DNA of 64,000 bases, from NCBI GenBank assembly GCA_022606425.2, contig JAHDVF020000240.1:1860001-1924000 (forward strand), given 5' to 3'. How positions within the stretch are numbered: the first letter of the stretch is position 1; every line of letters begins with the position of its first letter. Of the stretch, positions 1,421 through 64,000 are shown piece by piece. The notes under the pieces were generated by a model. That model had not been told where the DNA came from. It ran no database searches and saw only the letters and a list, made by a program, of their open reading frames with translations. The translations under genes were made by a program, and so were the position numbers. This DNA comes from Lepidostoma basale. Taxonomy: Eukaryota > Arthropoda > Insecta > Trichoptera > Lepidostomatidae.

Positions 1421-1476
1421 CTGTTAAAATTAAAAACACTGTTATAATATCACAATTTCTTTTTATTCACTGATTC

Positions 1477-1514
1477 GTGACAGCTGTTTCGCCAACCGAT
1501 GTTGGCATCATCAG
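1477..1514 (-). ncRNA. Hammerhead-like core, family 1 (left copy)
   Basis: On the minus strand: CTGATGA (complement of 1508-1514), stem II GCCAAC/GTTGGC closed by a 4-base loop, GAAA (1487-1490), palindromic stem III CAGCTG (1481-1486), then UC with the predicted cleavage between 1479 and 1478. All core residues are canonical. Stem I pairing is weak in this copy, so activity cannot be assumed. Type I hammerheads with tiny palindromic stem III are known from Penelope-like elements. Confidence 0.7.
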
Positions 1515-1562
1515 GTGTTAAAATAACTTGATGATGAGTGAACTGATAGTTTATTGTAAATC

Positions 1563-1603
1563 CTGATGATGCCAACATCGGTTGGCGAAACAGCTGTCGC
1601 GAC
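1563..1603 (+). ncRNA. Hammerhead-like core, family 1 (right copy)
   Basis: CTGATGA at 1563-1569, stem II gccaac 1571-1576 with gttggc 1581-1586 around loop atcg, GAAA 1587-1590, palindrome CAGCTG 1591-1596, UC 1597-1598 with predicted cleavage after 1598. The core is fully canonical and stem II is perfect. Only the first stem I pair (C-G) is clear. Confidence 0.72.
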
Positions 1604-1770
1604 ACTCTCAGTGAATAAAAATAAATTGTGATATTATAACAGTGTTTTTAATTTTAACAGTTATAGTGTTGAAGTTTCATAGTGTTTCGGCCAAAACAAT
1701 GGACTAAAATGTATAAATTTTTAAAGATGATTTAAATCCGCAGCATTCAAATTAAATGTACTATCTCCAA

Positions 1771-1866
1771 TATGAGCAATAAGGAAGGAAACGAGTCATG
1801 ACTAGGCTTGAACTCAAGTCCCCTGGATAAGGAGCCATACGTTTTGAACCTTAGACCACCACCCGT
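1771..1866 (-). repeat. SINE S2 (tRNA-like head)
   Basis: In reverse it reads a head gggtggtggtctaag, a B-box-like ttgagttcaagcc and a short tail. The same head and B box occur on the plus strand at 29554-29925. No acceptor-stem pairing is seen, so it is a tRNA-derived SINE rather than a tRNA gene. Confidence 0.6.
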
Positions 1867-1947
1867 TTTTACCTACCATATTTAATTTGAAAGAACTCCT
1901 CATATAATCATTTTATTTATTATAAAACAGTTTATTAGGAAGAAAAT

Positions 1948-2072
1948 TGTGACAGAGTCGCAAGAGCTATGACTGCCTAACGAAAGTCTCGGGTTGGATT
2001 TCCGGTGATGGCAGTGTTATTGTCACGCTGTATTCGTAAAATTACCTTTTGCATATCATGAGAATCAAATTC
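1948..2072 (+). repeat. SINE S1, decayed head copy
   Basis: Order matches S1: an A-box-like gagtcgcaagagc, the B-box remnant cgggttggatttcc (1991-2004), then atggcagtgttattgtcacgctg and catgagaatcaa. Many substitutions relative to the copy at 47741 show it is old. Confidence 0.6.
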
Positions 2073-2212
2073 TAAAAAAATTGCATACAGAGTAATTAAG
2101 TTATAATTACCTGCTGTATCTTTTACTTTTTGTCCTGTCATACCTCCAAGGTGAATAAAGCCTCAAGGAGCCTTCTCCACTTGGCTCTATCGTCGAACGC
2201 AATTGAAATAAA

Positions 2213-2330
2213 CTGTCGCGATAATCTCATAAAAATAAATTGTGATACGTATAATAACAGTGTTTCAAATTATAATGTTGTAAAATTACCGTATTCCGTA
2301 CAAAATAATGGATTATCAAATTATTCAAAA
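2213..2330 (+). repeat. Hammerhead repeat family 1, 5'-truncated copy
   Basis: Similarity to the right arm at 1594-1710 starts at ctgtcgcg and continues through aaataaattgtgata, ataacagtgttt and caaaataatgga. The catalytic box, stem II and GAAA are absent; the copy begins five bases upstream of the predicted hammerhead cleavage site. Confidence 0.65.
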
Positions 2331-3330
2331 TTTACCATCAATTGTACATACGTTGTAAGGAGGAATGAAACCGTCTACTTTGGGTTTCATTTCCCCATTT
2401 TGTCTTGTATGAGATGGCGATACTTTTCCAATATTATCAATATTAAAAAATCTACTCAAAATCATCACAGCAAATGCATGACTGCATTAAATGCGGTGAA
2501 TTGTTATAGCATCAGTTGCAGTAGTCCATTTCTATGTATACAGGGACGGGGTACACAGGATGACTATTTACCCAATGACGAAGCACGCAGCCGGAATATT
2601 GATGAGGGCCCTGGCGGTTAACTTGTGTACTAATTCGGTGAATATTTATTGAAATTGACAGTCGATGGATGCTGACAATACTGACATGTCAAACGTGAAC
2701 TAGCGCCACGGTGTACGCATTCCGTAACATAAGTGAGGCACGTATTGATGGTGCCACTTTTACGTTGCAATTGAAAAAAAAAAAAAAACCTATTTAATAT
2801 TTACTTTAGTGTGTGCTTCAGTAAAATAGTAAATCAAAAGTAGGTACTATTAGAATGAATTTAACTGTAATCAGTATTATAAAACTTTATTTTACTTATC
2901 AACGACATGTTTGAAATGTTTCCGTTATATCTCCCCTCTTATCAATCCTAATTATACCTCCTCCACCTTTATAAATAACTCTACCCTTTTTAGTAAATAA
3001 ATGATCACTCTGCATAATTTTTTAGTTAAAATTTGTACATTAAAAATATGATGTTATGTTAAGTGTAAGTTATATTTAAGGCGAATATAAAGATAATAAA
3101 CTAAAAGAAAAAAAATAGTGAATTTATTATAAATATTTTCATATACGAAATATTTTTATTATTATAACCGTTTGTATGTGAATGGTAAACGTTTCCATCA
3201 CAAATTATCTATCTTTATAGCATTATTATATTTGGCACTCATATAAATAATATTATGAACTTTTATGTATTCAAATTTTAACTCAAAGTCAAAAAATAAA
3301 TGTTATGAAAACGTATGTTTTCTATGATAG
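2331..3330. other. Unassigned sequence
   Basis: A chance 163-codon frame (2130-2621) overlaps a repeat and SINE flank and shows no domain. The remainder to 3330 is A+T-rich without recognised repeats, apart from a poly-A run near 2775. Confidence 0.3.
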
Positions 3331-3337
3331 GGTGATT

Positions 3338-3645
3338 TCTATGATAGAACGTCGAATGCAAATATAAGAAGTGAATGCGGTGCGAATGATGGTGTTATGA
3401 ACAAAATAATGAAAGGATCATTACGATGGTTTGGACATATGGAATGAATGAATGAAGAAAGATTGGTAAAAAATTATATGTTAACGATGTAAATGGAACC
3501 AGAAATAGAGTAAGACCGAACAAAACGTGGTACGATCAAATAAATCAAATATTGAATGTCGGCCACGTGAGGAGTCAGAGAAATCGACGCACGTGCATGA
3601 CACGATGTATGAGTGTTGAGGAATTGAGAGAAATATCGATCGATT
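3338..3645 (+). pseudogene. LINE family A, C-terminal fragment (plus half of an inverted pair)
   Basis: Reading frames give SECGANDGVMNKIMKGSLRW, then VNDVNGTRNRVRPNKTWYD, QINQILNVGHVRSQRNR and CMSVEEL. This is the region after the reverse transcriptase of a non-LTR ORF2. It has stops (for example at ggaatgaatga near 3441). It abuts a minus-strand copy of the same region, forming a long inverted repeat. Confidence 0.8.
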
Positions 3646-4215
3646 TCTCTGACTCCTCACATGGCCGATATTCAACATTTGATTTATTTGATCGTGCCAC
3701 GTTTTCCTCGGTCTTCCTCTATTTCTGGTACCATTTACATCATTAACATATAATTTTTTTACCATTCTTTCTTCATTCATTCTTTCCATATGTCCAAACC
3801 ATCTTAATGATCCTTTCATTATTTTGTTCATGACACCATCATTCGCACCGCATTCACTTCTTATATTTTCATTCGACACTCTATCATACACAGAATATCC
3901 ACAGATTCGTCTAAGAGATCTCATTTCTACTGCATTTATTCTACTTTCATCCTTCCTTTGCCAGTTGCATGCTTCGCTTCCATATATAAGGGTCGGTAGA
4001 AGAACACCATTGTGCACTGCCATTCTAGCTTTTTTGGATAGGTTTTTGTTTGCGATGACAACTTTAAGTGCACCATTCACTTTGTTGCCTGCCCCAACCC
4101 TTCTGTCAATATTCCTCTCCACTCTCCCATCTCTTGTAAACATACTACCTAAATACACAAACTCAACTACTTGCTCCAAATTTTCACCATTCACGCTAAT
4201 GTTCCGAATGGAATA
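3641..4215 (-). pseudogene. LINE family A, post-RT and C-terminal fragment (minus half)
   Basis: On the minus strand one long open frame reads NGENLEQVVEFVYLGSMF, RRVGAGNKVNGALKVVIANK, LIYGSEACNWQRKDESRINA, MRSLRRICGYSVYDRVS, SLRWFGHMERMNEERMVKK, GRPRKTWHDQINQ and NIGHVRSQRNR. The YLGS and YGSEAW landmarks are typical of the post-RT part of non-LTR ORF2. The frame is open for about 190 codons, so the copy is fairly recent. It is 5'-truncated near 4215 and lacks the RT catalytic core. Confidence 0.85.
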
Positions 4216-6120
4216 ATTGACTCGTTATCCCGCGATTACGATCCGCCGGATTTCGATATCGGTATTGTTATATTCATCGCGAATCATGGCAATGATGTGT
4301 GAAAAGTAGTTGAAACCTTTCGGAAACATTTCGTTGTTGAACAGATTGAAAATAAATTACTTTTGCTTTCCATCAACGGGAAATAATCGAAAAAAAATAT
4401 TGTTGATTTCTTGAAGAAAAAGCGTTTGGCGAATATCTCGGGGGATTTTTAAAGGGGCCAGGAAAATGTTAGCACATCTTTGTATCAAGAATGAAAGGTT
4501 TCTTTTTATATGTAGTCCAAAATAACTTATTCATTGAATACCTACAACTTGCGATACAATCAATCTGTCAATAAAAGTTTTCTTAGAATTACTTTAATAA
4601 AAAACACTTTGTACCGAAGCTATTAATCTTCAGTGAAATGAAAACTCCCTGGAGGAAATATGAAACGTTTTTCCTGACAATTTCGTTTCGTGCCTTTGTT
4701 CAAGTTTTAAGCAGTTTGTAAGACATTTTATTTTGATAAAACGGCATTCACTGCCGATCATCGCGGACTTTCCATGAAAACATGCATATTGTGTTGGAGA
4801 GAAAAGAAAAGTTGTCTTCCCAAGTTGATAAATCATTTTGAATCGAATCATATATTAATAATATATTTTGTAATCGCATTCATATAGTAAACTTTGAACG
4901 TTTTCCCCGAAAAATTCAATTACCTAAACATTAACTATCTTTACTTCTTCTCTTCTTCTTTTTTTCCAATGTTAATCTTAACTTGAAACTCCGACAAAGA
5001 ATGATTGAATGAAACATACGGTTTGTTCTACTATGTGTTTGAAAGTATTATATTTAATAGCTTGCCGCAAATCATGTAGAACTCAGATAATGTTCACATA
5101 TTCCGTAACCAATATGAATTTTCTTGTTGTTAAATGTCTTCTTTGTGTGTTTTGTGACTATTTGCTATTTTTAAAAATTTGTTTTCATTATAAATTTAAC
5201 TATTTTGTATTTAAAAATGTCAAATACTAGTTGTAAAAAACATGTAATTTTTCATAACTAAATAAAACAATATAAAAAAAGAAGAGGATTGGAGGTAACT
5301 GGGAAAACATGGATAATAAAGAGGAATGACCTGAAGAAGAAAATTTCACACAGGGATGTAGCGCTGAGAAGAGTGAGAGAAAGAAAAATAAGGATTGGCA
5401 CTAGAACACCGCTATGATGAACACCGCTATTTTATAGTTTGTTCTCGATGACAACAATATATTTTTAAAAATATATATAATAAGCTGAAATTTTAATTGG
5501 GGAATTTAATTAATTTTTTAATTAACCAATTCTAGCGTTATCGAAATGACAGACATAAAGAGTGACATTATTTTATTAACGAGGGATTTTCTTATGCAAA
5601 GTGCTCTCCCAGCAAATACCGCCAGAGTCTTAACGAAACTCGCAATCGGAGTTGATCGTATCTCAGTTCACCGCAGACCGTAAGATCGCTATTAAGAATT
5701 AAAGTATCACAGATCCATTTGCATCTCCCGGCCATACTGTTTCGAAGATTCAAGATAGAATTCAAGAATGGATTAACTACTTTAATTTGCATTTTATAAA
5801 ATGACTATAGTTATGGCTATATACATTAAGATAAAAGTATCTAAAACTATATCATTTAAATTATTTTGAACGAAATTTTGAATTTTTAAGGAGGGTAACA
5901 ACATTTTTCTTTGTCACATGGCACGGGGGAGAATGAGAAAAATGTATTGACCCACGAAACGTCGATTTAGAAGAAATACTTACATTCATGTATTAACCAA
6001 AAAAAACATGAAATTACAGTGTATTTTAAAATATTTTTAATAAGTAATATTTCTGAGTTGTAAAAAAATAAAAAAAGTATGGTGAGGTATATAATTCTAA
6101 AACTATATAACTCTTTGAAA
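4216..6120. other. Unassigned stretch, partly single-copy in appearance
   Basis: 4216-4460 is higher-complexity sequence without repeat match inside the window. 5278-5405 (aaacatggataataaagagg, gggatgtagcgctgagaag) resembles 19600-19790 and may be another old LINE tail. The rest is A+T-rich. The short frames here (4630-4851, 5009-5230, 5592-5792) carry no recognisable domain. Confidence 0.35.
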
Positions 6121-6129
6121 ACGAGCCAT

Positions 6130-6445: not shown

Positions 6446-6519
6446 AAAAATTCATATGAAATAAAAAATCACATCACTTTATTTGAATTTTGAGTACGAG
6501 TAACAAGAAATGACATTGT

Positions 6520-8425: not shown

Positions 8426-8429
8426 TCTT

Positions 8430-8759: not shown

Positions 8760-8900
8760 TCTTTTGTAATCTTGACGGAGCTTTGGCGGGAGCGAAACCG
8801 GTTGGCGTAAAAATTATATAAGTGTGTTAAAAAAAAATTATAATGCCACACCACACATTAAGTGCTTCGTACAAAAGTATAATATTTGGTGGATAATAAT
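8760..8900 (+). repeat. Hammerhead repeat family 2 copy
   Basis: Core-like region 8772-8810: TTGACGG in place of CTGACGA, stem II gcttt/ggagc around ggcg with wobble pairs, GAAA 8794-8797, CCGG 8798-8801, TT. Downstream comes the module atgccacaccacacattaagtgcttc (8843-8868), which also ends families 5 and 6. The catalytic box is mutated, so this copy is probably inactive. Confidence 0.6.
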
Positions 8901-10149: not shown

Positions 10150-10245
10150 GAAAAATACTTTTATACTTTTTTCCACCATTTAATTTTTGTTTTGTCAAAA
10201 TAACCGGTTTTGCTCCTTCCGGAGCTTCTACAGGGTTACAATACA
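10150..10245 (-). repeat. Hammerhead repeat family 2, decayed copy
   Basis: In reverse: gtaacc, CTGTAGA (two changes from CTGACGA), stem II GCTCC/GGAGC intact, AAAA for GAAA, CCGG and TT. The flanking gtaacc could still pair with the start of stem I, but two core changes argue against activity. Confidence 0.6.
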
Positions 10246-11051: not shown

Positions 11052-11088
11052 ATGTATGACATGTTTCGCCCTTCTAAGGCATTATCAA
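11052..11088 (-). ncRNA. Hammerhead-like core, family 3 (left)
   Basis: Minus strand: TTGATAA (complement of 11082-11088), stem II GCCTT with AAGGGC, GAAA (11064-11067), palindrome CATG (11060-11063), UC (11058-11059). Relative to CUGAUGA, positions 3 and 8 are both changed, to U and A. In the hammerhead fold 3 and 8 pair, so this double change is compensatory. Two stem I pairs (U-A, A-U) follow. Confidence 0.6.
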
Positions 11089-11108
11089 ATTTCGCCTTTC
11101 TAAGACAT

Positions 11109-11145
11109 TTGATAATGCCTTAGAAGGGCGAAACATGTCATACAT
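11109..11145 (+). ncRNA. Hammerhead-like core, family 3 (right)
   Basis: TTGATAA 11109-11115, stem II 11117-11129, GAAA 11130-11133, CATG 11134-11137, UC 11138-11139, predicted cleavage after 11139. Same U3-A8 compensated box as the left copy and as 63908-63914. Confidence 0.6.
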
Positions 11146-13354: not shown

Positions 13355-13625
13355 TTAATGCTTCTTGGACAATGATGTAAATCTCCATATTAAATAATTC
13401 ATACGAATGAAAACGTCTATTTTCTAGAAGTTTTATTGTAATTTATAGAAATGACATGTTTCGCCTCTTAAGGCATTATCGAATGTATTTTAAAACATTT
13501 ATTAATGCCTTAGAAAGGCGAAACAAGTAATTCCCGTAAAATGTATTAAAATTTTAGAAAACAGATGTTTTAATTCGTATAAAATCAGTTAAATTTTTTC
13601 TCTACTTTATTGTTACAGAACTATA
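13355..13625. repeat. Head-to-head pair of hammerhead repeat family 3 (decayed right copy)
   Basis: The left copy on the minus strand has TCGATAA (complement of 13476-13482), stem II GCCTT/GAGGC, GAAA, CATG and UC, with two stem I pairs. The right copy (13498-13533) has TTATTAA in the box and caag in place of CATG, so it is broken. The right half is duplicated at 14282-14405. Confidence 0.7.
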
Positions 13626-15660: not shown

Positions 15661-16445
15661 ATAATAATAAAAAATAATAATAAATGAAAACTTTTTTGCA
15701 ATGACCAGCTTTCATAGTGCTTTTATTTCTTCTCACAACATCTATCACGTTCTTCGATTATATTTTATTTGCCTTTTTATAAATACGCATTAAAATAAAA
15801 GGCACATTGAAATTTCTCTGTTTAGTTATTAAAAAAAAAACATCATAATAATTATCCCTTTGGGAATACTTGGTAAATATATTAAATAAATAAACTATTG
15901 TTATCATATATAAAATTCTGTATTACTCTCTTTGTCCGTAATTCGACCTACCCCTGTTTCACCATCCAAACCCACCCCATTTTGTTTCATCTAGTTGCCG
16001 TCCACCTCTCTAATCAAAAACACCCCTAAAAGTTCGGCCGCCATTTCACTAACGATGTTCGATGCTTCTCATCGATATTCTATAAAACGGGTTACTTTAA
16101 TAACTGATTTTATAAAAACTCTTAATCAATACGATTGTCTGATTAGATTGATAAGGGTTGATTTGATTTTCATTATGTTAATTATTTTTTTTAATCTAAG
16201 AAACTATTTTATTACGTTAACAGTTTTAGTTTGGTTGAATATATTATTAAATTTAGCATTGTATGAAATAAATATTTGGTATTCAAAATTAAATAAAATC
16301 CTGTGTTCATTTATGAAATGTAAATGTAAATGAAAATAAAAACATAGCTATTTTATTAAAAATCTACGTTGATGCTGAATTGAGATAGTAAAAGTTGCTT
16401 GGAAAAAAAAATTCCAGTAATTTTTTTATTTGTTTTTTAAGTACG
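15661..16445. other. Unassigned; single-copy-looking patch 15940-16085
   Basis: 15940-16085 has pyrimidine-rich, higher-complexity sequence (acctacccctgtttcacc, gttcggccgccatttcac). The overlapping 112-codon frame (15995-16333) becomes hydrophobic only because of A+T-rich codons and has no domain. Confidence 0.3.
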
Positions 16446-16447
16446 AC

Positions 16448-16575
16448 GACCTTCGTGGCAGAGTGGTAAGAGCTCTGACTTCCATACCGAAGGTCCCGGG
16501 TTCGATTCCCAGCGTAGCAGTGTGATTGTCACACTGTCATTGGTCTGGTGTAGAATTCACGTGACAATAATATAA
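16448..16575 (+). repeat. SINE S1, head copy
   Basis: gaccttcgtggcagagtgg (A-box region), cccgggttcgattccc (B box), tgtgattgtcacactg and gtagaattcacgtgacaata in S1 order. It is truncated after about 128 bases and lacks the 3' stem-loop. Pol III internal promoter boxes are recognisable. Confidence 0.8.
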
Positions 16576-16904: not shown

Positions 16905-16990
16905 ATTATATCAACATGAACCGATGATGAAGGTGTAAGCCTTCGAAACATGTCGAGAAAAATAAACTCAAAAGTGGAAAAAACAGTTTT
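16905..16990 (+). ncRNA. Hammerhead-like repeat, family 4
   Basis: CCGATGA 16921-16927 (U4 to C), stem II gaagg 16929-16933 with ccttc 16940-16944 and a six-base loop, GAAA 16945-16948, palindrome CATG 16949-16952, UC 16953-16954, then gagaaaaataaactcaaaagtgg. The same layout recurs twice at 23545-23740. Position 4 deviates in every family 4 copy, so activity is uncertain even though the fold is conserved. Confidence 0.6.
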
Positions 16991-19830: not shown

Positions 19831-19950
19831 AGCACTTAATTTGTGGTTAGACATTTAAAAAATATAAAATAAATAAAAAAACTTTGTATTAAACCACGAT
19901 ATGGTTATTATATTTGATGCCAACTAGTTTCGCTTGGACCCAAGCTTCAT

Positions 19951-20330
19951 GGACGAACTTCGTGGCTAAGTGGATAGTGCATTGACTGCAACCCCGAAGG
20001 TTCCGGGTTCGATTCCCGGCGAGAGCAGTGTGATTGTCACAATGTCTTTGGTCTGGTGTGGAATTCACGTGACTATAAAATGGCGATAGATTAGCTACCT
20101 ATCACATCTCACCAAAATCACTTCTTCGCGAGTTTCAATCCAATGGATTGGTTTGCAGCAAAGTGTAATATTTATTTTGCTGGTTCTTGGGATGCCACAT
20201 GGGCCTTTAATGTGGTGGTTTCCCGTTGCTTTTCACATTGAGAATCACTATGATAGGTATAATACGCTTTACATCGATTTGGCTCATGCTGTCATGATGT
20301 AAAGAGCGATTCAACAAAAAAAAAAAATAA
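19951..20330 (+). repeat. SINE S1, long form
   Basis: Head gaacttcgtggctaagtgg, B box ccgggttcgattcccgg, gtgattgtcacaatg, acctatcacatctca, then a ~125-base block (20108-20232, including gggatgccacatgggcc) absent from shorter copies, then agaatcactatgatag and the 3' stem-loop ctttacatc (20267-20275) / gatgtaaag (20296-20304), ending in an A-rich tail. Confidence 0.8.
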
Positions 20331-20361: not shown

Positions 20362-20403
20362 ACTAACCTGATGAAGCTTGGGTCCAAGTGAAACTAGTTG
20401 GCA
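20362..20403 (+). ncRNA. Hammerhead-like core, family 5
   Basis: CTGATGA 20368-20374 (canonical), stem II gcttg 20376-20380 with caagt 20385-20389 around a four-base loop, GAAA 20390-20393, palindrome CTAG 20394-20397, then UU with predicted cleavage after 20399. Stem I is weak (one C-G pair next to the core), so cleavage is not assured. Confidence 0.65.
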
Positions 20404-20449
20404 TCAAATATAATAACCATATTGTGGTTAAATACAATGGAGTTCTGGT

Positions 20450-23329: not shown

Positions 23330-23376
23330 TCTCAACCGACGTTTCGGAGATCGTTGCAGTCTCCATCTTCAGGGTA
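23330..23376 (-). ncRNA. Hammerhead-like core, family 6 (left)
   Basis: Minus strand: CTGAAGA (complement of 23366-23372), stem II GGAGA/TCTCC around a nine-base loop, GAAA (23342-23345), minimal stem III CG, UC, then GGTT. ACC before the box pairs with GGU after the cleavage site (three stem I pairs). All core positions are canonical. Confidence 0.72.
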
Positions 23377-23404
23377 AAATAATATATTAAGGTATAAACT
23401 TGAA

Positions 23405-23446
23405 CTGAAGATGGAGACTGCAACGATCTCCGAAACGTCGGTCGAG
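23405..23446 (+). ncRNA. Hammerhead-like core, family 6 (right)
   Basis: CTGAAGA 23405-23411, stem II ggaga 23413-23417 with tctcc 23427-23431, GAAA 23432-23435, CG, UC 23438-23439. Core canonical; stem I is not supported on this side because the 5' flank differs from the left copy. Confidence 0.65.
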
Positions 23447-23539: not shown

Positions 23540-23740
23540 AAACACTGTTTTTTCCACTTTTGAGTTTATTTTACTCGACACGTTTCGAAGTCTTACACCT
23601 ACATCATCGGGAGAACGAAATAAACTTATTTATCGTAAACAGTTCATATCGGTCTCTCGATGATGAAGATGTAAAACGTCGAAACATGTCGAGAAAAAAA
23701 TTAATAAGTGGAAAAAACAGTGTATTAATTCATAAAAATA
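23540..23740. repeat. Head-to-head pair of hammerhead repeat family 4
   Basis: Minus copy 23540-23616 and plus copy 23650-23735 mirror each other (aacactgttttttccacttttgag... and ...gtggaaaaaacagtg). In the minus core: CCGATGA, GAAA, CGTG, UC, with CUC/GAG as stem I. In the plus core: TCGATGA, GAAA, CATG, UC, again with CUC/GAG. Stem II of the plus copy is eroded. Confidence 0.7.
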
Positions 23741-23744: not shown

Positions 23745-23850
23745 TAAACATTTAGTAATTTATATAACCACTACTTTATTTGGTAACATCGACCGGTTTT
23801 GCTCCCGCCGGAGCTTCGTCAGGGTGAGAGAGTAAACTAAAAGTGTAAAC
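23745..23850 (-). ncRNA. Hammerhead-like repeat, family 2
   Basis: Minus strand: CTGACGA (complement of 23816-23822, canonical), stem II GCTCC/GGAGC around ggcg, AAAA in place of GAAA (23797-23800), CCGG (23793-23796), UC. The first A for G is the only core deviation. Stem I has scattered pairs. Lies between a family 4 pair and a LINE A tail. Confidence 0.65.
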
Positions 23851-27930: not shown

Positions 27931-28590
27931 ATTATCGTTAGTAAGTTGTATTTAAATTAATTTGGAACATACCGTATTTTGTCCACCTTAGCCAACGTGC
28001 TGTTGATTGTCCGACGTTCATTTCAATTTTTGATCACTTTGAAGGGTAGATAATTTTGCGCGCGACATGCAGGCAAAATTAACGCCGCCTGGGTACGAAT
28101 GGGGTGGGAAGTAGGCAAAATAAGCGCAGTTTGTCATGTTAACCGTTCGGGTGTATACACTTGTACAGCCAATTACTGTCAATTAAGGGTGACTGTGTGT
28201 AAACACAATACCAAATTTTCGATCATTTTAAACAGTGTTCGATTGATAATAAAGGTGGTTAATAATACATAAAAAATGGTTGCCATTCAAACTTTCAATA
28301 AAACTTAGAATTCAAACATTTTACAAACAGATCTAAAGAAACGATTTTTTCTCGTTATTTCTGTTGAAAGAAATAATAAAAAAGAAAAGGTAAAGATAGT
28401 TAGTTAGATAAAGATCGAGGAATCTTCAAGATCAAATCAATCAAATACGAGAATTATATAGTATGTCAGGTCGAAGTACTTAATTGGATGTTTACAAAGG
28501 ATGACATAGGAAGTTGAAGGTGAAAGTTTATGGAGGCCAATGCTCGAATAAAAATAAAAATTATACCATATTTATTGTAACTATCCGTTT
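27931..28590. other. Single-copy-looking block 27955-28210, then A+T-rich
   Basis: 27955-28210 (ccaccttagccaacgtgctg, ttgcgcgcgacatgcagg, aattaacgccgcctgggt, cagccaattactgtcaatt) is higher-complexity and unmatched in the window. Candidate non-coding conserved element, no proof. Confidence 0.35.
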
Positions 28591-28592
28591 TA

Positions 28593-28843
28593 ACGACCTT
28601 CGTGGCCAAGCGAATTGACTACCATCCCGAAGGTTCCGGGTTCGATTCCCAGCGAGGGCAGTGTGATTGTCAAACTCTCTTTGGTCTGGTGTAAAATTCA
28701 CCTGACAATAAAATTACGATACATTAGCTACCTATCACATGTAACGAGAATCACTATGATAGCTACAATACCCTTTTATTTGGCTCATGCTGTCATGATG
28801 TAAAGAACGATTCAACAAAGTAATAATAATAATAATAATAATA
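28593..28843 (+). repeat. SINE S1, near-full-length
   Basis: acgaccttcgtggccaagcg, B box ttccgggttcgattccc, gtgattgtcaaactc, ttggtctggtgtaaaattc, cctatcacatgtaacgag, ggctcatgctgtcatgatg and (AAT)n to 28843. Lacks the long-form block. Confidence 0.85.
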
Positions 28844-31425: not shown

Positions 31426-31828
31426 AACTAACCATTACGCTGTTTTTACTGAAGGGTTAGGCCGCGAGGCTGGACCTCCATACTAATTGGTGACCTTCGT
31501 GGCCAAATGGAAAGTGCTTGGAATGCCATACAGAAGGTCCCGGGTTCGATTCCTGGCGATGGCAGTGTAATTGTCACACTGTCTTTGGTCTGGTGTAGAA
31601 TTCACGTGACAACAACAAAATGGCGACAGATTAGCTACCTATCACATGTCACGGTAATCAATATGATAGCTTTAATCTTTACATCGATTTGGCTTGCGAT
31701 GTAATAATGTAAACAAAATAAACATTATAATAATAATAATAATAATAATAATCTGTCCTGACATACGAGATTATATTTACACTGGAAAATCCTCTACATT
31801 CATATATCGTACCACGCAAGCACGTCGA
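31426..31828 (-). pseudogene. LINE family A tail, split by a SINE
   Basis: taactaactaaccattacgc and the decayed block to 31490, then (after the SINE) ctgtcctgacatacgag through ctacattcatatatcgtac and aagcacgtcgatttt. Joined, these give the usual tail order, so the SINE landed in the LINE. Confidence 0.65.
31491..31752 (+). repeat. SINE S1, near-full-length, nested in LINE A
   Basis: gaccttcgtggccaaatgg, B box cccgggttcgattcctgg, gtaattgtcacactg, cctatcacatgtcacgg, the 3' arm ctttacatcgatttgg and a long (AAT)n tail. Orientation is opposite to the LINE fragment that hosts it. Confidence 0.85.
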
Positions 31829-35679: not shown

Positions 35680-36300
35680 ATGATATATTTATTGTTTCTT
35701 GAACAATAATATGAAACTCCAAATTAAGTATTTGAAATTGATGAAAACGACGACCTTAGTGATAGAGTGGCAACAGCTATTTCTACCACATCGAAAGTCC
35801 CGGGTTCGATTCACGGCGATGACAGTGTGAAAAAAAAATCCAACGCTGTTAGAATTCACGTGACAATAAAAAAGGATATTGACTAATTACCTATCACATG
35901 TCATGAGAATCAATAAATAAAAAAATTATACGGTAATTGGGTTAAAAGAACACGTTGTTTAGAAAAATGTGGAAAGCAACAGAAATCTACCACATTAAAG
36001 ACCTAAATGGCATCCTAAGAACCAGCAAAGATATTAGATATTTTTGCCAACCAATTCCTAGGATTGAAATTAAATAAAAATGACGAAAACGTCCGTTTAG
36101 TGAAAGTTACATATTATACTTATTTTTTTAAGTTACAGTAGAGTTTATATGGAACGACAAGTTCAACATCAAATATTGAAACTATTTGATAATGTCAAAG
36201 CAACCCGCAACATGTCACTTTATTAAAATATACTTTAAAACATATTTCAGAAGACAGATATTTCCATAAATATGTAATTAAATACACAATATAAATGATA
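35680..36300. repeat. Hammerhead family 3 repeat split by a SINE
   Basis: Outer tail attgtttcttgaacaataat (35692) to gatgaaaacg (35749), then a SINE insertion, then cgaaaacgtccgtttagtg (36084) and finally a decayed core at 36190-36225 (TTGATAA, gtcaaagcaacccgcaa in place of stem II and GAAA, CATG, UC). The core is no longer foldable. Confidence 0.65.
35750..36079 (+). repeat. SINE S1 insertion with internal inversion
   Basis: Head cgaccttagtgatagagtgg, B box cccgggttcgattcacgg and acctatcacatgtcatgag are in plus orientation. 35960-36070, however, is the reverse complement of the long-form block (rejoined: tttgctggttctt, ggatgcca, tctttaatgtggt). Flanks atgaaaacg (35741-35749) and atgacgaaaacg (36080-36091) look like the target duplication, so this is one insertion with an inverted part. 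Confidence 0.65.
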
Positions 36301-36469: not shown

Positions 36470-36785
36470 ATGATACGAGTACCTTAACAAAATGAAATAA
36501 CTTTGTTTTTTGTATCACAATTGTATTTTATTTTACGCGACAGCTGTTTCATCAACATATGTTGACATCATCGAGTGTTACAATAATATATCAAATGTCA
36601 AATTTTCGTGATTTTTCGAATCTTTGTGTATTTGTTCCTATGTCAATTTGAATTATTTAGGAACAAATATATTATTACAACACCTGATGATGTTAACATA
36701 GGTAAATGAAACATCTGCCGCGGAAAATAAAATACAATCGTGATACAAAAAACAAAGTTATTTAATTTAACAGCTTAATTATTGT
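36470..36785. repeat. Head-to-head pair of hammerhead repeat family 1
   Basis: Left core on the minus strand at 36536-36574: TCGATGA box, stem II GTCAAC/GTTGAT, GAAA, CAGCTG, UC, GCG. Right core on the plus strand at 36684-36721: CTGATGA, a broken stem II, GAAA 36708-36711, CATCTG in place of the palindrome, CC. Outer arms ctttgttttttgtatcacaa and ttgtgatacaaaaaacaaag match perfectly. Confidence 0.8.
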
Positions 36786-40964: not shown

Positions 40965-41090
40965 GAGTATTTAGTGTGCTTCCACTTGTGTTTATGTTCG
41001 ACCAGTTTCAGAAGATGGCAGCACGCTGCCGAAACCGGTTGAACATAAACACAAGTAGAAGCACACTAAATACATAATAATAATGTGAAT
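40965..41090 (+). ncRNA. Hammerhead-like repeat, family 9 (inverted)
   Basis: CAGAAGA 41009-41015 (U4 to A), stem II ggcag 41017-41021 with ctgcc 41026-41030 around cacg, GAAA 41031-41034, CCGG 41035-41038, UU, then gaac 41041-41044 pairing with gttt 41005-41008. The outer arms (gtgcttccacttgtgtttatgttc and gaacataaacacaagtagaagcac) mirror each other, so the left edge of the box may have been made by the head-to-head junction. Confidence 0.6.
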
Positions 41091-47735: not shown

Positions 47736-47740
47736 AAACA

Positions 47741-47992
47741 ACGACCTTCGTGGCCGAGTGGTAAGTGCATTGACTGCCACCCCGAAGATTCCGGGTTCTA
47801 TTCCCGGCGAGGGCAGTGTGATTGTCACACTTTCTTTGGTCTGGTGTAGAATTCACGTAACAATAAAATGGCGATAGATTAGCTACCAATTACATGTCAT
47901 GAGAATCACTATGTTAGCTATAATACCCGTTACATTAATTTGACTCATGCTGTCATGATGTAAAGAGCGATTCAACAAAAATAATGATATTA
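47741..47992 (+). repeat. SINE S1, near-full-length
   Basis: acgaccttcgtggccgagtgg, gtaagtgcattgactgccac, B box gattccgggttctattcccgg, gtgattgtcacact, ggctcatgctgtcatgatg and a short ATAAT tail. A cccgttacattaatttg change weakens the 3' stem-loop. It is followed at 47995-48070 by the short gcgctataaaa repeat. Confidence 0.85.
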
Positions 47993-48889: not shown

Positions 48890-49115
48890 TAATAATTAAA
48901 TAAAACGATGTTTTTTAACTACTTCCACTTTTGTCTTTATTTAGACAGCGACCGGTTTCGCCAGGCTCGCTGGCATCGACAGACTGGTCGATGATTAATT
49001 ATTATTTAAAATGAACTTCCATCAAGAGATTTCAGTATAATCATTTGATTTATTTAATTATTATTTCAAATAAACTTCCATCAAGAGATTTCAGTAAAAT
49101 TTTTCGATTAGTCTT
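48890..49115. repeat. Hammerhead repeat family 8, minus-oriented core with duplicated tail
   Basis: Minus-strand core at 48944-48986, tail in reverse up to 48890, and on the other side two tandem copies of aacttccatcaagagatttcag (49013 and 49073). Confidence 0.7.
48944..48986 (-). ncRNA. Hammerhead-like core, family 8
   Basis: Minus strand: CTGTCGA (complement of 48976-48982; A6 changed to U), stem II GCCAG/CTGGC around a five-base loop, GAAA (48956-48959), CCGG (48952-48955), UC. Stem I is clear: CAGU before the box (48983-48986) pairs with GCUG after the cleavage site (48946-48949). Complete architecture, one adverse core change. Confidence 0.65.
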
Positions 49116-53229: not shown

Positions 53230-53345
53230 AATATATTCCATTGTTTTGGGCGAAACACTATGATACTAATATGATGATGTCAACATAGGTTGACGAAACA
53301 GCTGTCGCGAAAAATAAAACTAAAAACTAAACTGTGAAATATAAA
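53230..53345 (+). repeat. Hammerhead repeat family 1 copy
   Basis: Starts with an inverted tail piece (ccattgttttgggcgaaacactatgatac), then the core at 53271-53309: ATGATGA (C3 to A), stem II gtcaac 53279-53284 with gttgac 53289-53294, GAAA 53295-53298, CAGCTG 53299-53304, UC 53305-53306, GCG. Stem II is perfect but C3 is lost. Much of the left arm is deleted. Confidence 0.7.
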
Positions 53346-55544: not shown

Positions 55545-55690
55545 ATTTATGTAAATAGTGACAAATTTGTTTCCCCTTGCGAGGGCATTCTCAAACTGAA
55601 CCTAATCGCCAAACAGTGTGTCCTTATATTGATAAGGTTAAGTTGAGAATGCCCTCATAAGGGAAAACGAATTTGCCACTATTTATATAA
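55545..55690. repeat. Head-to-head pair of hammerhead repeat family 7
   Basis: Left copy (minus, 55557-55597) and right copy (plus, 55640-55680) mirror each other: aaatagtgacaaatttg...gagggcattctcaa versus ttgagaatgccctc...gaatttgccactattt. The right copy has AAAA for GAAA and CC for UC. Confidence 0.8.
55557..55597 (-). ncRNA. Hammerhead-like core, family 7
   Basis: Minus strand: TTGAGAA (complement of 55588-55594; U3 and A8, compensatory), stem II CCCT/AGGG around cgca, one extra G, GAAA (55570-55573), eight-base palindrome CAAATTTG (55562-55569), UC (55560-55561). AGU before the box pairs with ACU after the cleavage site (three stem I pairs). Confidence 0.65.
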
Positions 55691-57465: not shown

Positions 57466-57469
57466 TTTT

Positions 57470-58715: not shown

Positions 58716-58719
58716 AAAA

Positions 58720-59298
58720 GTATTTTGATATAAAATGGTAAACAAATGAAAAAGTATTTTAATACAATATGATAAAGTAATATTATAATACAATTCGCAA
58801 ATCCTGCAAAATTGAAGGCATAGCGAGATGGAGTAGGCAGAGAAGACGATTCTGGAGGGACCACATCGAGAGAATGGATCCAGCAAAAATTTCTAAGATC
58901 GTGATGCACGAGACTCCAGAGGGCCGTCGACCACCAGGACGACCAGCAAAGAGATGGAAAGAAGGTTGATCGTCTTCATCGCAGGAAGAAAGTTGATATC
59001 CTGCATAAAACATATCGCAAGATCTACAATCAGAAAAAGAAGATGAAAAATATGATAAAGTTAACAAATGACACAAGTATTTTAATACAATTTACTGAGG
59101 TAAACAATGAAACAAGTATTTTAATTTAATATCATATGATAAAATAAACAAATGAAAAAATATTTCAATACAATATGATAAAGTAAACAAATGAAACAAG
59201 TATTTAAAACAATATGATGAAGTAAACAACTATAACTATAATTATATTTTAATATCATATGATAAAGCAAACAAATGAAAAAATATTTTAATACAATA
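58720..59298. repeat. Minisatellite-like array, about 38-45 bp unit
   Basis: The unit tgataaagtaaacaaatgaaacaagtattttaatacaat recurs with variation at about 58727, 58765 (partial), 59050, 59085, 59137, 59178, 59217 and 59262, plus 59668 after a LINE fragment. LINE B pieces at 58795-59045 and 59298-59665 break up the array. Confidence 0.65.
58795..59045 (+). pseudogene. LINE family B, C-terminal fragment inside the minisatellite
   Basis: RKSCKIEGIARWSRQRRRFW, RDHIERMDPAKISKIVMHET, PEGRRPPGRPAKRWKEG, a stop, SSSSQEES and LISCIKHIARSTIRKRR. Nearly open; unit-like sequence flanks both sides. Confidence 0.8.
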
Positions 59299-59665
59299 TG
59301 GCATTGAATCGAGGGCAGACACTGTGGAGACAAAGAGCATGTTAAGGACAACCGAGATGAACACTCCGCGCTATAGCTCGCAAAACCCTACGTGATCGAA
59401 TTAGGAATACAGCAATCTGAGAAATCTGCGAGGTCGAAGATGTGGTCAGATGGGGACGTTAAAGACGGCGATACTGGCATCAACATGTAGAAAGAATGAG
59501 CTCAAATAGGATACCATACATAGCTCTCCATGGAACGCCAAACGGACAACGCCGACCAGGAAGACCCCCGAAACGGTGGAGAGAAAGCTGGAGTTCAGCG
59601 TCTCAAGAGGACCCGCCTGAAATAACAGACTTCTGAGTCTACCAAAAGTGAAGAAGAAGAAGAAT
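59298..59665 (+). pseudogene. LINE family B, second fragment inside the minisatellite
   Basis: ggcattgaatcgagggcagacac, KSMLRTTEMN, ctatagctcgcaaaaccctacg, EICEVEDVVRWGR, RRRYWHQHVERMSSNRIPY, IALHGTPNGQRRPGRPPKRW, RESWSSASQEDPPEIT then a stop and a gaagaagaagaa tail. It includes GIESRADT, the block before the KTLR motif. Two indels. Confidence 0.8.
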
Positions 59666-61040
59666 AATATGATAAAATAAACAAATGAAACTAGTATATT
59701 GCCCCTATCTATTTCTAAAATACTCGTACAATAATATTTACCACGAACCTACTCTATGTCTATATCTTGATTGTAATACATTTGGGGACAATTCCGAGGG
59801 ACCAAATCTAATGTTTGCTAATCTGGTAGCTTTTTAGGGAATTCTTTAAAATCATTTGACTTCCAGAATCAAATGCTGAAACTATATTGAGAAATATTTT
59901 CACATCACATTAATCAACTGTAATTGATTTGTTTGGCTGTATCAGCGAACAAATCAAACATGGTTAACTGCACATCTATAATTATACTGAGATGTCTAGA
60001 CTAGATTGATTTTCATATCTAATTTCAATTAATATCATTGTTAAGATAATCAAAAATTTCCATTAATATAAGATGTTCATAACGGTGTTCATTGACATCA
60101 TGTGACATTGTTATATTACTCGTATATTAATATTAAATGCAGTAAATTGATTATCGTAATTTGGAAGTTGGGGGAAATGTATCCTTAACCGTCGCGTTGC
60201 CATGTGGTAAATTGAGTTTCCACTGCCAATTTAAAGTTGATTTTCTTAAAACCTATGGACCCTAATATTATAAAAAAAATTGTAATCCTCCATTGAAGTG
60301 TTTTCAATATTTCGTAATAAAAAAAAAAGCAAAAAATTACTTCCTTCATCCCAAAAAAAAATATTTTCTAAGACTGCCCTCACCTTCATTCGTGTTAAGG
60401 TAGAATTTGTTTTGCTAATATTTACAACTTTATCAAAAGTGACAAATACTTACTCGCTGTTTTGAAGTATTATAAATTATATCTTTGGCTTTTTCAATAT
60501 GTACGTAATAATACCGACTGTAGACGGAAACGCAGGACGCAACTTAATAATATCAGAACTGTGAAAATATTAACACTTTACCAAAAGGGACAAATATTAA
60601 TACGTACTCGTTGTCTTGAACGTACTATACATTTTGCCTAGGTGCCTTTATCATACGTAAAATCTCGTAAAGTCTAGCCGCGCCGGCCGCCGCGCGGCGC
60701 TTGTCTTTACCTGCGTGTCCAGTCATTCTTATGCTATGACGCATTACATATCAGAAATCGCATGGTTCCAGAAAAAAATTAATAATGATATGTTTTTCAA
60801 ATAATCCATGTATGTTATAGATATCGATCTATTCCTAATGAAATTCCCTACAAGATGACATAAATTAAATTTTGATTAATCTAGTCATATGCTTGATATT
60901 TAGATAAAGTTAGCGGTAAACTGAACTTACCACATGGGAGCAAGCGTTTTGTTTTGAACACGGTACGTTAAGGGTTAAAACATGCGTATTAAAAAAATGA
61001 ACTCACTAACGATTTTAAAATCTAACAAATAGTGAACAAT
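59666..61040. other. Unassigned stretch with a GC palindrome
   Basis: 60679-60703 (gccgcgccggccgccgcgcggcgc) is an isolated GC-only patch capable of hairpins. The remainder is A+T-rich and unmatched; 60170-60280 and 60900-60975 share the idea of cgttgccatgtggtaa / accacatgggagcaagcg, a possible short inverted repeat. Confidence 0.35.
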
Positions 61041-61045
61041 ATTTT

Positions 61046-61480
61046 GAATGTTTACAAATACTTGTAGACAAATACTGGATTTTACCCATTGCAGGTTAAT
61101 CATTTTTAAGGATTAATTGTATCTCAATAGAGACAAAGATGTATATGTTTTTTTTTTTTTTTGCATTATTAACACATTGCGTTATTAAAGATTTTGTGCT
61201 TAATGCTTACACCTAATATTAAGAGATGGCGCTAGTGTAGATTGAACTAAAAAATGTGAAGTATTTCTCAATATTGTAGCATACATACATCTTTCAAAAA
61301 TTTGTCAGACGTGGTGGTCGTAAGAAGGGGGGAATGGGGAATGTTGTTCACATAAAGCGATCGCTTAACCTAACCAATGACAGGTCACAAGTCCTGTAAA
61401 CGATTCGACCACCATATTCTGTTTAAAAAAAAAAAACAATTTACATCTTCGTCTTTATCGAGATACAATTAATCCTTAAA
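61046..61480. repeat. M1 repeat with visible terminal inverted repeats
   Basis: Left end caaatacttgtagacaaatactgg ... attgtatctcaatagagac (61046-61137) is the reverse complement of the right ends of the copies at 9718 and 56222 and partly of its own right end (acatcttcgtctttatcgagatacaattaat). Internal order as in other M1 copies. A poly-T run of 16 lies at 61149. Confidence 0.75.
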
Positions 61481-61514
61481 AATATAACAGTTTTTGTTCA
61501 TATTTGAGAATTAA

Positions 61515-61850
61515 TAATACGTTAAACTAACTAACCATCATACCGTCTTCTCAATCGGAGTCGTGGAAATAATGAACGGTCACACTGTTCTTTCCTCATA
61601 AATATCTCTTGGTTCCTCAACGCATTCACAGGTCAATTTCTCCGACATCTCACGTGGCCGACATATATTTGATTGTTCTAGGTTTTCCTAAGACTTTCTC
61701 TACATCTTGTACCATTTACACTGTTTACATATTGATTCATTATCATTATTTTTTTCCATATTTCAAAACCATCTTAATGTCCCTTTGATGTTTGTTTGTT
61801 CATAACACATTCATTTGCATTACATTCATTTCTTATATTTGCTTTCGTAT
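61515..61850 (-). pseudogene. LINE family A, old C-terminal fragment
   Basis: aactaactaaccatcatacc, gtcacactgttctttcctca, ctcacgtggccgacatatat, ggttttcctaagactttctc, aaaccatcttaatgtcc and cattacattcatttcttat follow A in reverse with many changes. Confidence 0.6.
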
Positions 61851-61930
61851 GAAGTACTTAATTTGTGGTGTTGGATTATTAAATAGAATATTAAAACACT
61901 TTTAATTTGTTTTACACCACTTTATTCTTA

Positions 61931-61975
61931 AACAACTAACCGGTTTCGCCCCCGCCGGATCTTCGTCAGGGTTAC
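61931..61975 (-). ncRNA. Hammerhead-like core, family 2 (left)
   Basis: Minus strand: GTAACC, CTGACGA (complement of 61963-61969), stem II 5' side GATCC with 3' side GGGGC around ggcg (partly eroded), GAAA (61944-61947), CCGG (61940-61943), UU. GTAACC before the box pairs with the AGTTGT after it in five of six positions (two of them G-U wobbles). Core canonical. Confidence 0.75.
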
Positions 61976-62016
61976 AAAAGACACTACTACAAAAGACAAA
62001 ATACACTGTGATTTTT

Positions 62017-62060
62017 GTAACCCCTACGAAGCTCCAGCGGGAACGAAACCGGTTGGTTGT
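62017..62060 (+). ncRNA. Hammerhead-like core, family 2 (right)
   Basis: gtaacc 62017-62022 pairs fully with ggttgt 62055-62060 as stem I (two G-U wobbles at the outer end). Stem II gctcc/ggaac around agcg has one mismatch. GAAA 62045-62048, CCGG 62049-62052, UU 62053-62054. The box is CCTACGA instead of CTGACGA, so this copy is probably dead, while its stem I confirms the fold. Confidence 0.65.
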
Positions 62061-62139
62061 TAAAAAATAAAGTGGCAGAAAAAATAATATAAGTCTATTA
62101 TTATCATATTTTTTATATTTGAATTTGTCTCTTTCAGAT

Positions 62140-62200
62140 GTACTGCATTTATTCTACTTTCATCCTTATTTTGCCAGTTTCATGTTTCACTTACTAGTGA
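62140..62200 (-). pseudogene. LINE family A, small fragment
   Basis: tactgcatttattctactttc, atccttattttgccagtttc, atgtttcact: complement of the ETWNWQNKDESRINAVH block. Confidence 0.55.
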
Positions 62201-62435
62201 TAACAATAATAGCCAGAAATGTATGCTTTAGATCTATTTTGAAATCAGAATTACACATAAAATGAAAAGGTTTAATAATAATATCAAAGAAGATACCTTT
62301 CAAGAAAAAAACTGACAGGATTTGGAAGGAGGGAGTGTGTAGAAACACATTGGAAAAGTTTATCAGAAAATGGCAGACGTAACAGGGTGTGACAAAGGCT
62401 CAGCAGAGGTTGTAAGGAATAACATATTAATTTAA
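62201..62435. other. Unassigned sequence
   Basis: ggatttggaaggagggagtg and tggcagacgtaacagggtg near 62315-62390 are purine-rich and unmatched. Confidence 0.3.
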
Positions 62436-62439
62436 AAAC

Positions 62440-62530
62440 ACTTTTATACTTTATATTATATATTTTTTTACATCACTTTATTTGTTTTAACAAACCAACC
62501 GGTTTCGCTTACACCAGAAATTCACCAAAA
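62440..62530 (-). repeat. Hammerhead repeat family 2, decayed
   Basis: In reverse GAAA, CCGG, UU and GGTTTGTTAAAACAAATAAAGTG-like tail are present (62466-62508), but the box reads CTGGTGT and stem II is lost. Confidence 0.6.
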
Positions 62531-62559
62531 TTGCAGAAACCAAAAAGTGGACATTTTGG

Positions 62560-62955
62560 AAGTTGTAAAAAGTGAGGGAGGGGATAAGAAGTGAGGAGGG
62601 TATAAGAAGTGAATGTGGTGCGAATGAAAGTGTTATGAACAAAATAAGGAAAGGGTCATTAAGATGGTTTGGACACATGGAAAGAATGAGTGAAGACAGA
62701 ATGGTAAAGAAGGTATATGTAAACGGCGTGAACGGAGCTAGAAATAGAGGAAGGCCGAGGAAAACGTGGCACGATCAAATCAATCAAATATTGAATGTCG
62801 GTCACGTGAGGAGTCGGAAAATCGACGTGCGTGCATGACAAGATGTATGAATGTAGAGGAAGCGAGAGGCGTATGTCAGGACAGAACAGTGTGGCGTTCC
62901 ATTCTTTCTGCCTACCCCTCCGGGGAGACGGCGTGATGGTAAGTTAGTTAGTTAG
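62560..62955 (+). pseudogene. LINE family A, C-terminal domain with TTAG tail (good copy)
   Basis: The frame at 62572-62835 is open for 88 codons: a duplicated REGIRSEEGIRSECGANES (small tandem duplication of the GIRSE unit), VMNKIRKGSLRWFGHMERMS, EDRMVKKVYVNGVNGARN, RGRPRKTWHDQINQILNVGH and VRSRKIDVRA. One missing base near 62818 shifts the frame; the other frame continues with MTRCMNVEEARGVCQDRTV, RSILSAYPSGETA, a stop and gatggtaagttagttagttag. A single frameshift makes this one of the youngest A copies. Confidence 0.85.
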
Positions 62956-63900
62956 TTTTAGTAAAAAGTGAGCGAAACTAGTTGATTCGTTAAAATAAAT
63001 ATAGTGTTGTCAAAACATAATTTGAACGCATTTTAAATTTATTTTTTATTAAAAATAATTGCTACACCAAAATTTAATTGTGTCATACGAAAGTAAAATT
63101 TATAATCAAATTCTTAGTTAACTTGGGAAAAAATCTTACAACAATACATTTTATGTCTCTCATTAATAATATTGTTCTATTATTTGTATCAATATTCATC
63201 AATAGTACAATATTTCAATATGTATCTGTAATTTTTTTTAATTCTTCGATAGAAACATATTTAAATCAATTTCTTCATTTTTAAACTTAATGTAATACTT
63301 CACTATAAATACATTTTTTTTTATCTAAAAGTAGAGAAACTTTATTTCAAAACCACAAACTCATAGAATTCAAAATGCAGATTTACTTCCAATCATTTTC
63401 GTCCATCTATAAAATTTTGAGTGCGGCTATTTCCCTGTGAAAGCGTCCAAAGTGTTCCATTATTTGAATTTATCTCCATTTTGTAAAAGTCCACAAAACG
63501 TTTCTAAATTATCCAGATTTTCGCATGAATTCTCCGCAGGACCGGTTACTCATCAATGGCAGTAGCTTCGCAGCCAATTGACAGGTCCAGCGCTCCGGAA
63601 GCCCCCTTTCCACCCCTCTCCGGCGCTCAAACCGCCCCCGAACCGCCCGGCCCAACCCCCTGGTAGCACCGTCTGGTTCACGATCTGCGACCTTCCCCTA
63701 ACAATTCTCAACCCATCTTATTTGAATAGACAAATGTAGCTGCATGTAGAATTATATCTATGAATATATCCTACCTACATAAATATATGAAACACATACA
63801 TATAAACGTAGGAATTAATATTTATCGTAGGTATTATTTACTGAAAAACACTGTAAAACATTTCTTTATAAGAAATATCTAAATAAATTCTTAGATTCTC
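62956..63900. other. Unassigned; GC-rich single-copy-looking block 63520-63720
   Basis: 63520-63720 (gcaggaccggttactcatc, ggtccagcgctccggaagcc, aaccgcccccgaaccgccc) is GC-rich against A+T-rich surroundings and has no repeat partner here. The rest to 63900 is A+T-rich. Confidence 0.35.
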
Positions 63901-63904
63901 TTTC

Positions 63905-64000
63905 CATTTGATAATGCATTAGAAAGGCGAAACATTTGTTAAATAAATAGAGTATAATTTTTTTTTTAGAAACCAGTATTTTTAATTCATTTTTAGTATA
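63905..64000 (+). repeat. Hammerhead repeat family 3, running off the window
   Basis: TTGATAA 63908-63914, stem II gcatt/aaaggc (weakened), GAAA 63929-63932, catttg in place of CATG, UU, then gttaaataaatag and the tail to the window end. Third independent example of the U3/A8 box. Confidence 0.6.

Follow-up and report, generated by a model that had tools for sequence, protein, structure and literature searches.

Why should short DNA repeats with unrelated sequences share one fold, and why do so many of them stand head-to-head? The question is raised by a 64,000-nucleotide (nt) stretch of the genome of the trichopteran Lepidostoma basale (contig JAHDVF020000240.1, positions 1,860,001 to 1,924,000), called the window below. 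The window lies within a 769-Mb assembly, and all results come from this one genome. An earlier note, made from the sequence of the window alone, described about nine families of hammerhead-ribozyme-like repeats with a palindromic stem III and placed them in Penelope-like elements (PLEs). The repeats are very probably pseudo-long terminal repeat (pLTR) fragments of about nine PLE families, each with a minimal type I hammerhead, and their pairs very probably arose by two-ended target-primed reverse transcription.

The recurring motif and its stems

The proposed fold runs in the order short stem I, CUGANGA box, one extra U or A, stem II, GAAA, palindromic stem III word, and UH. All eight canonical boxes reported earlier are present, in position and in strand. 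The earlier count of families also holds: grouping by stem II and word gives nine families with 22 instances in the window. Their words are CAGCTG, CTAG, CG (family A), CCGG (three families), CATG (two families), and CAAATTTG. Scans recovered 17 of the instances; 36684(+) and 61969(-) came from the earlier list of boxes, and 23610(-), 62023(+), and 55594(-) were found by reading. Twelve of the 22 are members of six head-to-head pairs.

The combination is far more frequent than chance would give. A strict scan of the window (CTGANGA, zero or one extra nt, a stem II of at least 4 base pairs (bp), and GAAA or AAAA) yields eight matches, six of them with a palindromic A-word-T. In 100 dinucleotide shuffles, the same scan gives a mean of 0.08 palindromic matches and a maximum of 2. 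In a relaxed scan, box mismatches were permitted, while GAAA and exactly one extra nt were obligatory. Palindromic matches then number 5, 5, and 6 at zero, one, and two box mismatches; the corresponding values in 60 shuffles are 0, 0.28, and 1.93. The palindrome occurs in 5/5 perfect-box matches and 5/7 one-mismatch matches, so that 10 of these 12 carry a self-complementary stem III word with little or no loop. The joint recurrence of box, stem II, GAAA, and self-complementary word is therefore confirmed for the window as the earlier note stated it, together with the excess over shuffled sequence on which that note had made its proposal depend.

Between the stems, the core C3UGANGA9 and G12A13A14 is conserved, with changes in some families (CTGTCGA, CAGAAGA, CCGATGA). 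One feature is absent from the earlier description, namely the extra U or A between the box and stem II. It is present in all six strict palindromic matches. With zero, one, or two extra nt permitted, all the loci and the window together yield 43 perfect-box palindromic matches (mostly family A copies), of which 42 have one extra nt and the remaining match has two.

Stem I was compared across families in a set of 79 records (360,772 nt, window included), in which the scan yielded further families with the same layout. Excluding the overlapping loci L001 and L073, 115 instances were grouped into 26 clusters. Stem I was no selection criterion; a second box pattern, TTGANAA, was added to the clustering after the first multi-record scan had been inspected. 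Ten clusters hold two or more instances. At their stem I positions 1-4, complementarity is seen in 31/40 pairs (permutation mean 16.7, at most 28 in 5000 permutations), and position 1 is complementary in all ten. Over all 26 clusters the figure is 57/104 (permutation mean 38.8, maximum 53). Cluster consensus sequences have a stem I of 1-6 bp, with an unbroken run of at least 3 bp in seven of the ten clusters and of 1 bp in three. Stem I closes the motif across families, weakly so in the CAGCTG family.

Compensating changes can also be followed within a family. In a gap-free alignment of 24 CAGCTG copies, compared with 500 shuffles, stem II is 93.1% paired, and one of its pairs is exchanged from CG to UA in nine of the 24 sequences. 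Alignment cells pair in 82.9% of cases against 79.2% in shuffles, a value not reached in any of the 500. Cells changed on both sides number 15 (shuffle mean 6.8), and no shuffle is as high. A different compensating change affects the box itself, where C3-G8 is replaced by U3-A8 in two families with the 3-8 pair kept.

Minimal type I hammerheads of PLEs have been described after Cervera and de la Pena 2014 and Lunse et al. 2017, in accounts consulted in part (PMC7761336, PMC6466107). As there portrayed, they share with the present copies a weak or missing helix III, a palindromic stem III fit for dimers, and a tandem or dispersed arrangement, some within pseudo-LTRs. Relative to published PLE hammerheads, the extra U or A and the U3-A8 pair of two families are candidate differences. 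In the PLE of Anolis carolinensis (Poseidon PAc), a double mutant of C3-G8 partly restores cleavage (PMC11167929). A minimal type I hammerhead of the PLE type is the best-supported reading of these repeats, with a predicted cleavage site.

Penelope-like genes beside the motif

The placing of the repeats in PLEs can be examined by asking what stands next to them elsewhere in the genome. PLE proteins are recognizable where a reverse transcriptase (RT) and a GIY-YIG endonuclease domain share one open reading frame (ORF). A genome search for GIY-YIG, in which 150 of 541 candidates were scored, gave at least 62 matches. Thirty loci were cut out, two bacterial-looking loci were omitted, and 28 were tallied; within this tally, L046 with L069 and L062 with L066 are the two arms each of single inverted elements.

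An example for the linkage is locus L071, which has an open frame of 758 amino acids (aa) with RVT_1 (E 1.4e-13) and GIY-YIG (6.6e-5). The frame opens inside an inverted arm. About 390 nt past its stop stands a motif of the same family as window instance 48982(-), followed by AATAAA. In 17/28 loci, a motif of this family follows GIY-YIG on its strand at a distance of 414-471 nt. In another 3/28, the distance downstream is 375-407 nt and the motif is of the GGAGG family, which is absent from the window; its word is decayed in L056.

A second example comes from a protein search (59 of 3702 candidates scored). It revealed additional PLE families (38-46% identity), some of them arranged in tandem and with frames open over about 830 aa. 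The best named protein relative among the 120 matches listed is from Phthorimaea, an insect. Locus L079, the spacer between tandem PLE frames on contig C308, reads TCAGT-TTGAAAA-T-GCC..GGC-GAAA-CAAATTTG-TA-ACTGA, in which stem I has 5 bp and stem II has 3 bp. The motif was identified by eye because such a stem II falls under the limit of the scan. Window instance 55594(-) belongs to the same CAAATTTG family.

An ORF with both RT and GIY-YIG is thus linked to the repeat only for the families of 48982(-) and 55594(-), a direct tie to a PLE gene for two of the nine window families. Since these two match motifs beside RT/GIY-YIG frames of the same genome, the placing proposed in the earlier note is supported. 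The other seven families may be joined to PLEs indirectly, by their shared layout and head-to-head pairing. For the pairs 23372/23405 and 1514/1563, the shared pattern of inner and outer ends, described below, would provide a further indirect link.

Two observations from these searches stand apart. At C308:2095592-2108538 (L080, L081), tandem PLE frames form a head-to-head array inside a larger inverted duplication, which is either a real palindrome or an assembly fold-back. At L041 (contig C102) and L043 (contig C729), GIY-YIG matches fall in UvrC-like, bacterial-looking genes whose neighbours, by reading, also look bacterial; these contigs look like symbiont or contaminant.

Paired arms, their ends, and their probable origin

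In separate genome searches, the arms stand head-to-head in 20/20, 15/15, and, for the GGAGG family, 7/7 partner rows, and in 8 for CCGG family b (CCGG-b), the family of 48982(-). The arms of a pair do not end at the same place. In 46/46 scored pairs from five families, one arm stops at an inner site, and its partner continues for about 30-50 nt more, to an outer site.

The largest sample is family A, with 68 arms in 40 loci. Its arms end at positions 82-90 (33 arms) or 105-118 (35 arms) of a 118-nt arm, and 28/28 pairs consist of one inner and one outer arm. The bounds set in advance are satisfied by 27 of these; in L036 the outer arm ends at 105. The same combination is found in 8/8 CCGG-b pairs (122-136 versus 151, the latter being the end of the query), in 7/7 GGAGG pairs (118-127 versus 163-187), in 2/2 simple CAAATTTG pairs (C887 and C528, 139 and 133 versus 180), and in the one CAGCTG pair scored in the window.

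In the CCGG-b, CAAATTTG, and GGAGG searches, the best 40 of 58, 1906, and 2727 candidates were scored; copy counts are lower bounds. Scoring the best candidates over-represents outer arms among first matches, and the partner arm is therefore freer of bias. Several loci stand outside the 46. L003 and L017, as well as L007 and L033 with truncated partner arms, fit the rule but fall outside the scoring pattern for family A. L074 looks alike and is unscored, the left arms of L075 and L078 are shortened or compound, C1112 is compound, and C908 extends beyond the query.

A target duplication of at least 8 bp, most commonly 12 bp, flanks 26/28 family A pairs, compared with 0.66% of mismatched flanks, and each family A pair looks like one insertion. 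The two arms share a subfamily diagnostic base in 26/28 and 25/28 pairs at two such positions (permutation means 15.0 and 11.7), so both arms derive from the same kind of source RNA. The arrangement as a whole, with direct or inverted pLTRs, a tail on one of them, and a short target duplication, is that of PLEs; the duplications were measured for family A only.

The opposite end of each arm would record where copying stopped. In family A, the complementary DNA (cDNA) 5' end lies 0-12 nt upstream of the box in 55/67 arms, 13-30 nt upstream in none, and at least 31 nt upstream in 12. The stretch 0-12 nt upstream of the box is probably the usual RNA 5' end. A motif-independent pattern recovers 72 arms in the 40 family A loci, of which 67 start at 0-3 and the rest at 17, 26, 30, 36, and 41. 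No start at the predicted cleavage site is found in 41 CCGG-b rows or 91 CAAATTTG rows; as loci were found with motif-containing queries, such counts are fair for partner arms only. Signs of cleaved templates are scarce among the genomic arms.

Similar insertions are known from two other systems. The Anolis PLE, a predicted dimer, acts on both strands by cleavage and extension, and it starts reverse transcription at two adjacent internal sites that bound a genomic tail (PMC11167929). It shares with the present elements the hammerhead at the ORF start, the two adjacent start sites with the tail between them, and an AC-rich start region. The start used most often there lies 111-118 nt inside the ORF (PMC11167929), and the two family A sites lie about 77-82 and 108-112 nt past the ATG of CTGAAG-ATG. 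In the Anolis products sequenced, top and bottom strands show no apparent difference in start site, whereas here each scored insertion has one of each. Penelope families of Adineta vaga likewise have inverted pLTRs, and their target duplications are short, measuring 8-10 bp in the examples from the part of the source consulted (PMC3846280). A 31-bp tail on one inverted pLTR is called optional there, whereas here every scored pair has the longer end on one arm and on one only.

That each insertion uses one inner and one outer site can be held with high confidence. What is new is this rule of the pairs, namely that one insertion uses both start sites, one per end; no per-insertion statement of the kind was found in the literature searched, which left key subscription papers uncovered. 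Where a genome holds many short two-armed insertions, every one of them documents a single reaction. Biochemistry that follows one strand at a time could overlook a constraint of this kind, which applies per event; the existing Anolis assay could test it.

In the proposed mechanism, each pair would be the product of one insertion by two-ended target-primed reverse transcription. With a stagger of about 12 bp, the GIY-YIG endonuclease would cut the target, and the two DNA 3' ends would then each prime the copying of an element RNA, the inner start site being used at one end and the outer at the other. Both cDNAs would run 5' through a mostly uncleaved hammerhead and be joined head-to-head. The hammerhead itself probably acts on tandem transcripts, or as a structure for RNA dimerisation or recognition, rather than making the template's 5' end. 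A bolder version is rather unlikely: that PLE insertion is obligately two-ended and asymmetric, and that the palindromic hammerhead is mainly a dimerisation device by which a two-fold endonuclease/RT dimer is loaded with two template RNAs, self-cleavage being of secondary importance. Its bold element is the loading role.

A number of results weigh against the reading of the repeats as PLE hammerheads or against the regularity of the pairs. Rfam's curated covariance models return no hammerhead family in the window, either at the gathering cut-off or at E<=10, so the database check that the earlier note had suggested came back empty. Within the CAGCTG alignment, stem I is only 62.5% paired, and one pair is broken in 19/24 sequences. 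Two of the five covariation measures are not above shuffles: pairs with double changes (198/500 shuffles as high) and the number of pair types (400/500). RNAalifold alone on this alignment does not return the hammerhead or stem I. When nine sequences were co-folded, the word paired fully in trans in three, partly in four, and not at all in two. As for the genes, 7/28 GIY-YIG loci have no motif downstream and one more (L055) is doubtful, and family A is without an assigned PLE gene. Among the arms, the CCGG-b search gave one 27-nt tail-to-tail match at C1009. One family A arm, in L007 (start 36), begins 1 nt past the predicted cleavage site, the only one of 72 within 1 nt of it. The C308 array has outer-site ends on both of its sides. 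Over the 181 nt compared, one end stretch is an exact inverted copy of the other, which places the array inside a larger palindrome, and it was excluded from the pair count. C502, similar to C308, was excluded without a check.

Other explanations account for parts of this evidence. Inverted arms and target duplications are also produced by DNA transposons, and some pairs score below cut-off in Rfam as microRNA (miRNA)-like hairpins, as chance hairpins or a miniature inverted-repeat transposable element (MITE) might. Such an origin is very improbable and was rejected: motifs exceed the shuffle controls and adjoin PLE frames downstream of GIY-YIG, while the arms face away from a centre that varies, and have two end sites and no fixed terminal repeats. 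Self-priming has been proposed for the Adineta inversions in the part of that report consulted (PMC3846280), where a single cDNA made from an antisense template folds back and yields palindromic head-to-head arms. It would explain why both arms are of one subfamily and why some junctions, such as those of L009 and L024, have palindrome-like spacers. A fold-back copy should, however, stop at the end of its template, yet the arms stop at different sites in every scored pair. The arms also differ by at least one base in their first 80 positions in 25/28 family A pairs, a count inflated by later mutation and truncated arms. Because the arm ends differ and match the two start sites of the Anolis PLE, two-ended target-primed copying is favoured, and self-priming is judged improbable.

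It is possible, if doubtful, that the fold is kept as a structure for protein recognition or RT start which merely resembles a hammerhead, cleavage being irrelevant. The Anolis hammerhead mutants insert normally (PMC11167929), and few arms here start at the predicted cleavage site (1/72 in family A, 0/41, and 0/91), although motif-containing queries could miss copies of cleaved templates except as partner arms. A mere resemblance fits less well with a catalytic core that recurs across families with unrelated stems, with 3-8 covariation in two of them, and with tandem copies in which cleavage could matter. Two-ended copying of PLE RNAs with a minimal hammerhead remains the preferred account.

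Motif instances in the window and further observations

Six pairs are present in the window: 1514/1563, 11088/11109, 23372/23405, 23610/23657, 36574/36684, and 61969/62023. In the CAGCTG family, the first of them consists of a left arm at 1474..1519(-), which reaches the inner end (query position 116), and a right arm at 1558..1603(+), which reaches the outer end. The family also contributes the pair 36534..36579(-) and 36679..36724(+), the latter with its word decayed to CATCTG, and a relaxed-scan instance at 53266..53311(+). The family A pair has its left arm at 23333..23377(-), with the outer end, and its right arm at 23400..23444(+), with the inner end and a decayed stem I.

CCGG family a (GCTCC/GGAGC) is found at 8767..8808(+) with the decayed box TTGACGG, at 10197..10238(-) in a decayed form with CTGTAGA and AAAA, and at 23786..23827(-), where AAAA replaces GAAA. 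Its pair comprises a left arm at 61933..61974(-), with a mismatch in stem II, and a right arm at 62018..62059(+), with the decayed box CCTACGA. CCGG-b (GCCAG/CTGGC), to which the motif past the 3' end of L071's open PLE frame also belongs, is present at 48945..48987(-) with box CTGTCGA. CCGG family c (GGCAG/CTGCC) is present at 41004..41045(+) with box CAGAAGA.

CATG family a (GAAGG/CCTTC) has a relaxed-scan instance at 16916..16959(+) and a pair formed by a decayed arm at 23572..23615(-) and an arm at 23652..23695(+); the box of the latter, TCGATGA, is at 23657 by reading, whereas the register of the scan is 23660. In CATG family b (GCCTT/GGGC), an arm at 11053..11093(-) with box TTGATAA (U3-A8) is paired with a right arm at 11104..11144(+), and a further instance at 13448..13487(-) has box TCGATAA. 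The CTAG family is found at 20363..20404(+), its box given both by the earlier note and by the strict scan. The CAAATTTG family, that of the tandem PLE spacer L079, lies at 55555..55599(-) with box TTGAGAA (U3-A8). Two palindromic matches of the relaxed scan, 4711(-) and 12429(-), both with two box mismatches, were removed as likely chance (2 of 16).

The Rfam matches in the window are tRNA-like, miRNA-like, and a few other unrelated RNAs. Inverted motif pairs (23349-23429, 61942-62050, and others) score as miRNA precursor families below the gathering cut-off, and miRNA annotation calls at such pairs are likely to be false. A tRNA-like repeat occurs six times (16443-16514, 19950-20021, 28583-28654, 31487-31558, 35747-35818, and 47738-47809), once above the Rfam tRNA cut-off. 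ARAGORN finds no tRNA gene in the window, and the repeat is probably a tRNA-derived short interspersed nuclear element.

In family A, 35 codons are open from CTGAAG-ATG, and in arms such as that of L014 the open frame METATISETSVEKELSHGVTQKHIKHIAANRENLRN begins inside the hammerhead. By analogy with the Anolis element, this frame is a possible PLE N-terminus. In the CAGCTG family a stop follows early, so a coding N-terminus is not claimed in general.

Finally, contig C1521:1-11830 (L082 being C1521:1000-1500) consists of tandem units of about 208 bp with the CAAATTTG hammerhead, at a contig end. Judged by its units, the array is a retrozyme-like satellite. Metazoan non-LTR retrozymes, according to the part of the source consulted (PMC7229834), are likewise short tandem repeats with type I hammerheads, and their RNAs are about 170-400 nt long. 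The C1521 units differ from them in being, for the most part, 96-97% identical to the spacer and ORF start of a PLE. This 208-bp hammerhead satellite ties PLEs concretely to retrozyme-like arrays.

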